The notes under the pieces were generated by a model that was given only the letters and a program-made list of their open reading frames with translations, was not told the origin of the DNA and ran no database searches. From the NCBI GenBank assembly GCA_019244235.1, contig JAFASY010000122.1, forward strand, positions 1-45,743: a stretch of DNA of 45,743 nucleotides, given 5' to 3'. The translations under genes and the position numbers were made by a program. Each line of letters begins with the position of its first letter. The first letter of the stretch is position 1. This DNA comes from Chroococcidiopsidaceae cyanobacterium CP_BM_ER_R8_30. GTDB lineage: Bacteria; Cyanobacteriota; Cyanobacteriia; Cyanobacteriales; Chroococcidiopsidaceae. Positions 4,001 through 8,112 of the stretch are shown one piece after another.

Positions 4001-4990
4001 TCAATGACTGTTCGAGTTCATTGCTATATCTGCCTTTTCAGGAATGCCCCAGGCGCGACGAAGTTCATCTAGTGGGCAGGAGTCGATCGCAAAGTAGTCC
4101 ATCATCAAGGGGTCTTGGTGGCAGGATTTACCGCGCCGAATCGCATCGGCAATGCGTTCGGGTCCGCCTGGGACTGACAGCGAATGGTGACATCCCGGTG
4201 GCACGACCAGACTGGGCAGTAATCCGCTTTCATAGATGCCGATTGTCCCAATAAATCCTAGAGTGGTTCCCGGCACACGACTGGAACTGGCCATAAACGC
4301 CAGAACCTCCATTTCTCCCATCGGCGTGGTGTCGTAATCCGCCAAAACATGAACCCAGTCATGACGGGCAACGGCTTTATTTACTGCACCCGGAGTTCCA
4401 GGAAAAGCAAATCCCCGCTTCTGGTAAAAATTCCACAGCGCTCGCCCAATACTCCCCGCTGGACAGTTCTTCAATAAGTCCCAGCGTTGGGCTTCTTCTC
4501 GATCCGCTTCAACCGTTAATGCCCACGCCTTAATGCCAGCTCGTTCAAGCTTCTGTTGAAAATCTGGCTGTTTCTGATCCAGTGCGCCAATCCAGTTGAG
4601 GCGGTAAAAATCAACTTTGGCGGCTTCCTTTGCATTCTGTGCCAAGTCCCTTGCAACGACCAGACTCCTGTCTTCCACGCCAAGTTCTTTCGCCCATCGC
4701 TCGATCAACTGAGATAGCCAGGGTGGAATCGGATCGGAAATCACTTCGACGCTCACCATGAGTTCTATCAGCTCAAGGCGTTGCGCCAGGGATGGCAGGG
4801 CATCGCGCGCTGCCTGCGGGGTCGTCGGCTCTAGCGTCTCAAAATCGGCTTTGAACCCCAGCAATTTTTCAAATAACACAGACAGGAATCGGGGTTGCAG
4901 GGGAACATCCCACCCATCACCCCGACAGGCTCCTACTACTGCGGCAGCCAACAAAGGAGCTTGGTCGATGGAATTATGGATTAGAAACAT
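4001..4990 (-). CDS. Coq4-motif protein with helical N-terminal domain
   Basis: The 329-residue protein carries the exact Coq4 zinc-ligand pattern HDxxH-x11-E: H210, D211, H214 and E226 in HDWVHVLADYDTTPMGE. Coq4 proteins take part in ubiquinone synthesis, and Coq4 is proposed to handle the aromatic ring or organise the complex. Cyanobacteria make plastoquinone, not ubiquinone, so the role here is open. Residues 1-135 are mostly helical and acidic and resemble TerB-like domains (tentative). The region after 240 is rich in Gly and Pro. No signal peptide or membrane segment is seen. The ATG has no clear ribosome site. It lies 91 bases downstream of the acetolactate decarboxylase gene on the same strand, so co-transcription is possible. 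Confidence 0.6.
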   Translation of the reverse strand: MFLIHNSIDQAPLLAAAVVGACRGDGWDVPLQPRFLSVLFEKLLGFKADFETLEPTTPQAARDALPSLAQRLELIELMVSVEVISDPIPPWLSQLIERWAKELGVEDRSLVVARDLAQNAKEAAKVDFYRLNWIGALDQKQPDFQQKLERAGIKAWALTVEADREEAQRWDLLKNCPAGSIGRALWNFYQKRGFAFPGTPGAVNKAVARHDWVHVLADYDTTPMGEMEVLAFMASSSRVPGTTLGFIGTIGIYESGLLPSLVVPPGCHHSLSVPGGPERIADAIRRGKSCHQDPLMMDYFAIDSCPLDELRRAWGIPEKADIAMNSNSH

Positions 4991-5081: not shown

Positions 5082-5909
5082 TTATTTCTCTGCTTGCAGC
5101 AGTTCTGTTGAGGTGTCACGGCTGAAGTCTGCTTTCAAAAACGCCTCGGTTTCTGGCAGCGACATGCGGAAATCCCCCTCGTGCTGGATTTGAACTCGCA
5201 CCTGGGTAGCGGCGCACTCTAATAAATGACCCCCTGCTTGCTTGTCCGCCGTGAGAAAGTGCAAATGGTAGCCTGGTACGTTAACCGCTTTGACAGATTC
5301 TGGTGTCCAGAAGCCGACCAAGGTCCCGCTTACGGAGTGAAATTCAAACTCTGGCTGGGTAGCAGCTGCTTCTACCAGACGAACTCCCTCTTCTTGCTTG
5401 GCGACGGCACGAGTCCGCACATAATCGAAATTGCCCTCGACGCGGATGGCAAAGAAGACGTTCTCTGACAGGCGTAACTGATCGAGTTTTGCCAACAGTG
5501 TTGCCAGATCAGGGCAATCTGTCAGGTCATGGGTGCGCTCTGGAACAAAGTGAGTCACCACAGCAAAGGGACTGCGCACCTCATCTGTGACTGCGTAGAC
5601 TTTCCCATCGGAGCGCACCTGATAGAAACATCCATCCACTACCACCATCTCTCCATCCAGGTCGTTGAATGTACCAAGCCCAAAGTCACCATGCTGTCTC
5701 AATAGTCCTACGGTGACTTCTCCCTGATGCAAGCCTTCCACCAGTGCCCCGGTGGTAGAGATTTGAAATAAAGTGCTGTGCTCTACCTGGAGATAGTCTG
5801 CCAGAGCTTGCCGAACGATGTGTTGAAGGGATTCTCCTGTGAGACGTTGCCGCTCCTCGATCGCTCGCCACAGAGAATTAGAAACTTTACAGTGAATGGA
5901 ATGCGTCAT
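5082..5909 (-). CDS. Acetolactate decarboxylase with N-terminal RHH domain
   Basis: Residues 45-275 are a full acetolactate decarboxylase (BudA/AlsD family), which converts 2-acetolactate to acetoin and CO2. Visible active-site elements are GTFNDLDGEM (E87), the zinc ligands H215, H217 and H228 in GYHLHFLTADKQAGGH, conserved Arg in the RVEGNF and RTRA segments, and E253. Residues 3-43 (KVSNSLWRAIEERQ…GESLQHIVRQALADYL) look like a ribbon-helix-helix DNA-binding unit, which ordinary family members lack. The joined frame is continuous, with a single ATG at the RHH start and no obvious internal start with a ribosome site. The enzyme diverts pyruvate-derived acetolactate from valine and leucine synthesis to acetoin. 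Whether the added domain binds DNA or only multimerises is unknown. Confidence 0.85.
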   Translation of the reverse strand: MTHSIHCKVSNSLWRAIEERQRLTGESLQHIVRQALADYLQVEHSTLFQISTTGALVEGLHQGEVTVGLLRQHGDFGLGTFNDLDGEMVVVDGCFYQVRSDGKVYAVTDEVRSPFAVVTHFVPERTHDLTDCPDLATLLAKLDQLRLSENVFFAIRVEGNFDYVRTRAVAKQEEGVRLVEAAATQPEFEFHSVSGTLVGFWTPESVKAVNVPGYHLHFLTADKQAGGHLLECAATQVRVQIQHEGDFRMSLPETEAFLKADFSRDTSTELLQAEK

Positions 5910-6336
5910 ATGGTTGTGATATGGAAGTAGTGGTGAGGTAAAATCCTTACCCCCATCAGCACTCTGTATAATATGTAAGCGTAAATATTGATTATGAAAG
6001 CCTTTTTAGTTGAGAATGACCAAAATAATGGAGAATGGTCTACATAAAAGTAGGCTTTTTAGCATTAGTGTTCTCAATTAGAAGAAGTACTTTTCGCTAT
6101 TTCTCTAATTTTAGTGACTAATCTCTGCCGAATTGTCTTCGTATTGAGCTAAATAAGCTACTTATCAGACATCCTCTCAATCCAATCCTTTAAAGCTGAT
6201 AACTTGGCACATGTCCCTTTAACATGCTATGCCTAGCAGTGCAAATCCTCTATAGTTGCTCGATGCGAACTTTGAGGAGCGATCACCCCTACGAAAGCAC
6301 GAACATCACGGAAGCCATGGTTCTTCTTTAGGCGCG
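5910..6336. other. Intergenic region with coding remnants
   Basis: No intact gene is seen. Two short minus-strand coding-like tails can be read: one ends at a TAG at 6158-6160 (…ALKDWIERMSDK) and one ends near 6233 (…RLKKNHGFRDVRAFVG…). Both look like C-terminal scraps of unidentified proteins. The part next to 5909 is the likely promoter region of the acetolactate decarboxylase gene; I cannot place a convincing -35/-10 pair. Confidence 0.4.
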
Positions 6337-6945
6337 CTATGGCAGGGGAGTTAGCACGACTTCCATTTGATAAAACTTGAAGGTGTTGTTTTCGGATGGA
6401 TTGTCGGCAGCGGTTACCTGATAGCGATCGAGGACATCGGTGATGAATGCTGTCCATTCCTGCTCTGGCAAAAACCGCGTCCATTCTGCCAATGTCACAT
6501 GGCAGTATTCAAAGAAAGCCTGACGGGTTTGAAAATTCCACGACTTGTCTTCTACATGAATCTGCAAAACCTCCAGCCCGCTTCGTGCCGCTAAGGTGCG
6601 GTATGCCTCAGGGCTAGGATGGAAGTAAGGCTTGTGATGATTTGTAAAATAATGAACCCAGCGAGGCGACTGACAGATTTCTTCGATAACATCCTCAATG
6701 CATTTGCGTGACCCTTCTGGAACAAACCGCAGGAGTGCTCGTCCGTCTAGTTTTAATGCGGTGCGAATTGAGTGGAGGACTGCATCCTGTTCTGGAATCC
6801 AGTGGATCGCATTGAAGGAAACAATCTGGTCAAATTCCTGCTGGTATGGCAGGCTGCGGGCATCCTCTACCTCGAAATGCAAGTTAGGAGCTTTGTAATG
6901 TTCTTGAGCAAAGGCAATCATGTTCCGTGATGTATCTATGCCCAC
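6337..6945 (-). pseudogene. SAM-dependent methyltransferase, N-terminus removed by IS
   Basis: The 202 readable residues begin inside a class I methyltransferase fold: GIDTSRNMIAFAQ is the end of motif I's second strand with its acidic ribose-binding residue, followed by ARSLPYQQEFDQIVSFNAIHWI (motifs II and III region). The glycine-rich SAM loop that must precede it (typically VLDLGCGxG) is missing because the sequence runs directly into the terminal repeat of the insertion sequence at 6945. The C-terminal part resembles trans-aconitate-methyltransferase-like enzymes. The apparent GTG start at 6945 is an accident of the junction. Without the SAM loop the product should be inactive. Confidence 0.8.
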
Positions 6946-8112
6946 AGGGCTATTTCATTCTGAACAATGTCTTGAGGATGTCTAACCCGAAAGCACATTT
7001 TCTAGAAGCTTGAGCTATATTTTTAAATCCATAAGCCCGATAGGAATTTAAAGCAAAGTTACGAGCCAAAGCCCATATTTGTACTAATGGAGTTGTACGA
7101 ATCCTAGAGGCATCTTCACCTTGAGTAACATCTCTGACATAATGCACTCGATTTTCTACTCCCCAATATCCGCGCACTCGTTGTGCAATCTGCCGAACAC
7201 TTTCAGTGAGCGAACTTATGTAATAATGTACCTGTTTACTCCCAATCAGTAATTCTCCTTTGATGATTTGTCGTTCTGATTCAACTCGAATTATTGTGCG
7301 TAATCCTGGCCAAGCTCGAATGCCTTCGAGAGTCCGACAGATACTAACTGTGCGTTTTTCAATCCGACCATGACCTTTATTCAATTGTTGAGTTGTTGAT
7401 TCTGGAGTGAAATTAGCTTTGACTTCTTTTAGTAAACCTGGCTGATTGCCCTTAAGAGCACCAATGTAATCGTTCTCACTCTCAACAATTAACTGACAAG
7501 TTTTTTTGAGTATTAATCGCGTCAAAAGCAAACACCACTCCTTTGAGTGCTAAAATTTTGATGAATTCTGGCAAAGACTTGATTTCGTTGGTTTTTTTCT
7601 CGACTTCATAAGGTTGCAGGATTAATCCTCGCTCCACCACATATGCACTCACTAGCATAATCGCTGGATGTGACTCGCAATTAGGATTATCTTTTTCTAC
7701 CATAAAAGAACCTCTCACAACTTTACCATCCATAGCAATTGTTTCCCCTGCCTCTGGACAAATATTAAAAAACTTGGCAAGACTAGCAGCATAATCCTGA
7801 TACTCAATACTTAAAAGTGTTCGACGAATCGTGCTATACGAAGGTAAACGATGTTTTTCCATCCCGAATAATTCACTCAGTTGCTCATGATAGGACTTCA
7901 GCCAGTCACCAATCGCTAAGAATCCTTGATTCCCAGCGGTCACAGCTAGAGTAAATAGAGCTAAACACAAAGGTAACGAATGTCTTCTTCCTTGCCGTCG
8001 CCGTTGGTCAGGTAAATCGGCAAACGCCTCTACAATCGCTGCTTGCTGCATTTGGGTTCACTCGTCTTGTTCCATAGCACACTAGTCTAGCATTTAGAAT
8101 GAAATAGCCCTG
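6945..8112 (-). mobile_element. ISAs1-family insertion sequence, 1168 bp
   Basis: The element is bounded by a perfect 17-bp terminal inverted repeat, CAGGGCTATTTCATTCT at 6945-6961 and its complement at 8096-8112. It contains one transposase gene in two frames. The length and the transposase N-terminal domain (FADLPDQRRRQGRRHSLP…) fit the ISAs1 family. The 10 bases outside each end (TCTATGCCCA left, GCCATCTACC right) do not match, so there is no target-site duplication. Different broken genes lie on each side, which points to a deletion or recombination between two copies and not to a simple insertion. Confidence 0.85.
6950..8051 (-). pseudogene. ISAs1 transposase, frameshifted
   Basis: The 5' part (8051 to 7482, 189 codons) has the associated N-terminal domain, the first catalytic Asp in AMDGKVVRGS and the second in FAFDAINTQK. 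The 3' part (about 7531 to 6950) resumes in another frame at KKTCQLIVE and holds GYWGVENRVHY with the catalytic Glu, ending inside the terminal repeat. The break lies in a run of seven A (7501-7507 on the minus strand). Restoring the frame needs loss of one A or gain of two. A -1 ribosomal slip at the A-AAA-AAC heptamer would lead to a stop within four codons, so classical -1 frameshifting does not explain it. It is a disabled transposase unless transcript slippage or a sequencing error is involved. Confidence 0.8.

Follow-up and report, generated by a model that had tools for sequence, protein, structure and literature searches.

The locus described here raises the question of what a ribbon-helix-helix (RHH) domain is doing at the front of an acetolactate decarboxylase (ALDC), and whether it acts there as a switch or as a clamp. 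The gene occupies 5082..5909 on the reverse strand of the window, by which we mean the whole 45,743-nucleotide stretch analysed from Chroococcidiopsidaceae cyanobacterium CP_BM_ER_R8_30, and encodes, as judged from the open reading frame list and the Pfam and NCBIfam profiles, a protein of 275 residues with an ATG start (stop codon included in the coordinates). PutA is the textbook fusion of an RHH domain to an enzyme, and a second such fusion, to an unrelated enzyme, lets the switch and clamp roles of an enzyme-borne RHH be tested against each other. The step catalysed by the RHH-ALDC also lies where acetoin fermentation and the synthesis of branched-chain amino acids diverge, and the enzyme bears on dark fermentation in cyanobacteria.

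The ALDC domain spans residues 47-275 (5085..5771, reverse strand), a range supported by profile matches, alignment with solved ALDCs and fold. PF03306 matches residues 47-263 of the 275-residue protein with an E-value of 7.9e-79, the curated equivalog cut-off of TIGR01252 is passed over residues 46-272 (248.8 bits versus 180.65), and the predicted structure superposes over residues 43-275 on 4bt2 with a Z-score of 36.6 and an rmsd of 1.4 over 233 residues. All 32 RHH-ALDC sequences have H215, H217 and H228, encoded within 5226..5267 (reverse strand), and also E87, R167 and E274; a phmmer alignment places the six at 4bt2 chain positions 194, 196, 207, 65, 145 and 253, which we take, by the numbering of the Brevibacillus enzyme, to be its three zinc-binding histidines and its catalytic Glu, Arg and Glu. 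The claim of the first-pass annotation that a complete ALDC with all zinc ligands is present is borne out by these results, with the identities of the ligands following the assumed numbering: on profile and alignment evidence, the protein is a complete ALDC with a predicted intact active site. It shares its catalytic domain, its fold and the six presumed active-site residues with the AlsD/BudA enzymes (PF03306, TIGR01252; solved as 4bt2, 5xne and 6inc), from which it differs in that the solved members lack an RHH at the sequence level. Seven distinct solved sequences begin to align by phmmer only at residue 40-46, none earlier, in agreement with the earlier statement that ordinary BudA/AlsD proteins lack this domain; by fold, eight of nine entries align from residue 43-45 and 5yho from residue 32.

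Ahead of the enzyme, the RHH unit proposed for residues 3-43 (5781..5903, reverse strand) is recognisable from family matches to RHH_1, a structure model and profile comparison. It comprises, all on the reverse strand, a putative ribbon strand at residues 3-9 (5883..5903), alternating in pattern with hydrophobic residues at 5, 7 and 9, followed by helix A at residues 11-24 (5838..5879) and helix B at residues 28-40 (5790..5828), both from AlphaFold2 models. For the single protein the call is sub-threshold, with RHH_1 matching residues 1-42 at an E-value of 0.028 and 14.8 bits (curated cut-off 20.5) and PSK_trans_fac matching the whole protein at a sub-threshold 0.064; for the family, the sequence comparisons make it firm. 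Fourteen of 21 cyanobacterial N-termini match RHH_1 at E-values up to 0.1 (best 3.5e-6), all 21 align without gaps when cut at 48 residues counted from the mapped start (L189, a relative added later, is one residue longer ahead of the core), and their profile matches that of 20 free-standing RHH segments from related genomes (L163 left out) at 97.3% over 40 columns. Chance resemblance to an RHH is ruled out by this family evidence, namely the 14 matching N-termini and the profile match.

For the whole protein (pLDDT 88) AlphaFold2 places the two helices at residues 11-24 and 28-40, for the isolated domain (pLDDT 83) at 11-24 and 28-45; residues 3-9 are left as coil in both monomer models, as would be expected if the strand pairs only between chains. 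CopG, CopASO, Arc or PutA account for eight of the ten top Foldseek rows obtained with the isolated domain (E-values 0.30-0.96) and StnY for the other two, no row reaching 0.001, and the best VIA matches are NikR (Z 7.1), CopASO (7.1) and PutA 2gpe (7.0, rmsd 2.1 over 48 residues), in a range common for small folds. The domain has the strand-helix-helix layout, hydrophobic core and turn with G25 and S/T27 of CopG, CopASO and the NikR N-terminus; in contrast to the free-standing RHH repressors and antitoxins, it is fused to an enzyme. A profile search of the PDB with the N-termini was topped by chains of TAL-effector repeats, which we rejected as a summing artefact of about 4 bits or less per repeat; the best single-stretch matches were VapB26 (0.058) and CopG (0.071), neither significant alone.

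Translation starting near residue 45 by a common codon is excluded: there is no ATG, GTG or TTG from residue 2 to residue 56, and the next such codon is residue 57. Among 15 pairs of relatives, 12 gave estimates of both dN and dS for the N-terminal part and the other three had a saturated dS; dN lies well below dS in 11 of the 12; the exception, L006/L009, is a pair that hardly differs (dN 0.042 versus dS 0.035). In Gloeomargarita-type pairs the N-terminus evolves faster than the core at the protein level (L006/L007, dN 0.227 versus 0.046). The substitution patterns and the codon evidence show the N-terminal domain to be real and, as read from these alignments, under purifying selection.

Looking for further cyanobacteria with this fusion, as the first-pass annotation had proposed, we sampled 388 genomes of the class and found an intact RHH-ALDC in 21; the architecture is a recurrent one and no isolated curiosity. 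An ALDC match of any kind occurs in 35 of the 388; three of these 35 carry a broken copy with a trace of the RHH (G132, G161, G361), two have C-terminal ALDC pieces only (G255, G275) and nine have only a non-RHH ALDC, with a leader that looks by eye like a signal peptide in the eight read (G083 left out). In the window's order, 388 sampled genomes gave 16 ALDC matches, of which three are of the RHH form (the window's genome, G621 and G660) and in the remaining 13 the match begins at residue 43-46 or, for G396, there is a leader; the RHH form is patchy in this order. At genus level, ALDC matches occur in five of 34 genomes of g115, one with two internal stops, and in seven of 25 of g107. Broken or partial ALDC copies were seen in several relatives (L170-L176, L203), and L171, L175 and L176 retain a trace of the RHH. 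A second ALDC is present in four of the 21 carriers (G000, G007, G033, G069); the one in G000, the window's genome (L002, G000:C57:49922-50590), is 45% identical over residues 43-263, lacks an RHH and has a leader that resembles a signal peptide by eye.

Outside the class, the best 80 of 118 relatives were kept, two of the 80 being cyanobacterial duplicates of known loci, and among these 80 we recognised by eye an RHH-like N-terminus in 11 proteobacterial ALDCs; six of the 11 match a FitA-like RHH and four RHH_1, the best at 1.3e-4. Profiles and tree do not establish a common origin of the cyanobacterial and proteobacterial N-termini. The two profiles match each other at 96.7%, and generic RHH at 97.3% (cyanobacterial) and 96.2% (proteobacterial). 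In an ALDC tree of 106 rows (111 loci less the broken L028, L036 and L057, which were read in another frame, and the duplicates L032 and L033) all 21 RHH rows from cyanobacteria fall to the same side of a weakly supported branch (75/33), and the 11 proteobacterial RHH rows need five changes.

In the Proteobacteria, at L034:1809-7041, five genes stand head to tail, encoding a STAS protein, the RHH-ALDC, a dCache-SpoIIE phosphatase, a Na/Pi cotransporter and an anti-sigma-type ATPase (STAS PF01740, 1.2e-23; SpoIIE, 1.8e-53; Na/Pi cotransporter, 1.8e-31; HATPase_c_2, 1.6e-25). A STAS match lies in the examined flanks of 16 of the best 80 of 118 loci (tblastn, E-value up to 1e-3), ten of them also with an ATPase match and five also with a SpoIIE match, and none of the 16 is named as Chloroflexi or Anaerolineales. 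In nine loci (L034-L040, L049, L051) the STAS and ALDC genes are immediate neighbours; in L047, L053 and L078 the STAS gene is more distant and oppositely oriented; L100, L101 and L107 have neighbours of this kind too. The 16 STAS loci include five of the 11 ALDCs with an RHH-like N-terminus (L034, L039, L047, L049, L051) and none of the four from Thioalkalivibrio. This gene order resembles that of partner-switching modules and suggests a regulatory tie of the ALDC. The 23 cyanobacterial stretches (the window, L112-L131, L189 and L190, the last two short) have no STAS, SpoIIE or ATPase match at E-values up to 0.01. Among the matches listed, titles and abstract openings contain no link between ALDC and anti-sigma factors.

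The buried strand positions carry hydrophobic residues in 21 (position 5), 20 (position 7) and 21 (position 9) of the 21 cyanobacterial rows; G25, L36 and L40 never vary in these rows, and all 21 keep G25 and S/T27 where helix B begins. Positions 4, 6 and 8 face outward, on what we take to be the side that touches DNA in CopG and PutA; 10, 7 and 7 different residues occur there, and their entropies are close to those in a mixed free-standing RHH set. Mean net charge is -0.38 for residues 1-42 in the 21 rows versus +1.71 in 21 controls (p 0.0014) and 0.38 versus 1.76 for strand residues 2-9 (p 3.5e-5), both values being uncorrected for relatedness. The controls, 21 of 29 RHH segments after eight near-duplicates were dropped by eye (L152, with an internal stop, having been left out beforehand), are free-standing RHH proteins of mixed kinds from related genomes, with putative DNA binding. 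At position 8 a basic residue occurs in eight of 21 rows and ten of 21 controls, no clear difference; the lysine found at this position in the window's protein is in register with PutA Lys9, whose role in PutA we presume. The strand pattern is kept in only three of the 11 proteobacterial relatives, the helices being retained. PutA, taken as a positive control for strand conservation, yielded only three RHH-bearing sequences: of eight plasmid records drawn from 60 of the 241 that matched, plus E. coli K-12, three of nine have an RHH (E. coli, K. aerogenes and Plesiomonas) and the other six have none, and a search of 25 genomes for PutA linker domains gave three matches, none with a recognisable RHH upstream. 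In family f16 the N-termini are often rich in His and Cys (H3 in 15/21, H20 in 11/21, C21 in 10/21, H44 and H45 in 11/21), perhaps forming a metal site.

The non-coding DNA upstream of the gene (5910..6336, reverse strand) is the candidate place for an operator, and no convincing one was found there. A weak direct repeat of 9 bases, 8 of them identical, spaced 11 bases, occurs at 5905-5924, and a 12-base block that is not palindromic is common to three g115 relatives (L018, L021, L022). No operator common to several groups was found in the upstream DNA, a weak test with few close relatives, and the regions upstream of alsS in five carriers gave no convincing alignment.

As for metabolic setting, the curated cut-off for AlsS, the catabolic acetolactate synthase, is passed in three of 21 carriers (G332, G126, G364), and in all three the AlsS gene lies directly upstream of the RHH-ALDC gene. 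Among seven neighbourhoods examined (six of genus g107 and that of G364; G766, at a contig end, left out) alsS is present in five, where it stops 25-40 bases short of residue 1, and none was found within the 4 kb examined in L211 and L212. This is the order that we take the Bacillus alsS-alsD operon to have, in which alsS is followed by the decarboxylase gene. Bacillus uses a separate LysR-type regulator, AlsR, and differs in that its AlsD lacks an RHH and in that the window's gene is not beside alsS. An AlsS-like synthase below the cut-off (462-489 bits) occurs in ten further carriers, including the window's genome, where it scores 483 bits and is on another contig. The remaining eight of the 21, one of them an incomplete genome (G106), have no synthase match above 279 bits; there acetolactate would have to come from weaker-scoring, biosynthetic-type synthases, and the ALDC may drain the branched-chain pathway. 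The suggestion that the protein controls branched-chain amino acid genes finds no backing in the neighbourhood, where the recurring functional neighbour is catabolic AlsS, in three of 21 carriers.

We favour, at a probability of about one half, an oligomerisation device on a cytoplasmic ALDC over a PutA-like repressor-enzyme. The protein would be an ALDC, probably cytoplasmic, that turns acetolactate into acetoin with the RHH domain in front; the RHH would most likely pair two chains through its strand and helices, this pairing would fix or enlarge the enzyme oligomer, and there would be no conserved sequence-specific DNA binding. The oligomer, the location in the cytoplasm and the absence of DNA binding are all things that we infer. 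An oligomerisation device fits the conservation better because the buried core (5/7/9, G25, L36, L40) is kept and the outward strand residues are variable and less positive than in the 21 free-standing controls, and of the two roles proposed in the first-pass annotation, trigger enzyme or multimerisation device, it is the latter that stands better, the fold and the PutA precedent being the only positive evidence for the former. The loss of the strand pattern in most proteobacterial relatives with retention of the helices, and the AlsS gene directly upstream in the three carriers passing the cut-off, also agree with it. According to passages of PMC5293562, grafting the PutA RHH turns a monomeric PutA into a dimer; PutA is nonetheless a shown DNA-binding repressor whose single RHH serves both dimerisation and DNA binding. 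Also against an oligomerisation device are the similar frequency of basic residues at position 8 in rows and controls, with lysine in the window's protein, the solved ALDCs that need no such clamp, and the mixed nature and putative DNA binding of the control proteins. A trigger enzyme in the manner of PutA, in which an RHH dimer on its own or the alsS promoter would bind differently in the presence of acetolactate or acetoin and so control its own synthesis, is possible, yet we consider it rather unlikely. The likeness to E. coli trifunctional PutA (RHH, proline dehydrogenase and P5C dehydrogenase) is considerable, with an N-terminal RHH of about 47 residues on a metabolic enzyme, a fold among the best structural matches and a lysine in the same register, and G25 and S/T27 are kept throughout, some carriers have the alsS-alsD pair, and the upstream repeat and 12-base block could be operator sequences. 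The enzymes are unrelated, however, DNA binding is only putative here, the outward strand residues are variable and of low positive charge, eight of 11 proteobacterial relatives have lost the strand pattern, and neither the repeat nor the non-palindromic block is common across groups, nor do the alsS upstream regions align. The narrower proposal that in the acetoin branch of cyanobacteria the protein is a repressor-enzyme of PutA type, whose RHH dimer occupies its own or the alsS promoter until acetolactate releases it, and that it comes from an ALDC lineage with wider regulatory ties, as its proteobacterial cousins in Cache-SpoIIE/STAS/anti-sigma-type operons would suggest, strikes us as unlikely.

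The RHH might instead serve to dock or sense something else, for instance AlsS, some other protein or a metal, in the way that RHH antitoxins also bind partner proteins. The frequent His and Cys of the N-termini (H3, H20, C21, H44, H45), the pairing with alsS in some carriers and the partner-switching genes beside proteobacterial ALDCs speak for such a role, which is nevertheless quite improbable, given that the His/Cys pattern is not general, the cyanobacterial stretches lack STAS, SpoIIE and ATPase matches and most carriers have no alsS neighbour. That the domain is a decaying leftover of gene fusion, with no present function, would agree with the faster N-terminus of the Gloeomargarita type and the broken ALDC copies in several relatives, but we regard it as very improbable with dN well below dS in 11 of 12 estimable pairs, the hydrophobic core kept across deeply separated families and the domain retained by the intact members examined in the clade.

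No paper bringing together 'acetolactate decarboxylase' and 'ribbon-helix-helix' was found in open-licence PubMed Central. The alsS/alsD acetoin route has been reported for Black Sea Synechococcus genomes, as described in passages of PMC6776005 and PMC8955281 that make no mention of an extra domain. AcnSP, as described in PMC7336809, is unrelated to the RHH-ALDC.

On a minor level, a gene of about 320-340 codons (cluster c14) adjoins the RHH-ALDC gene in three Gloeomargarita-type genomes (L115:8243-9208, L116 and L118), and its L115 copy has no Pfam or NCBIfam match. In the window, the next gene downstream (4001-4990, reverse strand) has a sub-threshold Coq4 match of 19.4 bits versus 22.9, and no NCBIfam match at E-values up to 0.1. 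On the other side, a methyltransferase reading frame at 6337-8051 (reverse strand) lacks the start of the profiles, its matches beginning at profile position 22-49, and adjoins two reading frames that resemble a transposase split in two frames.
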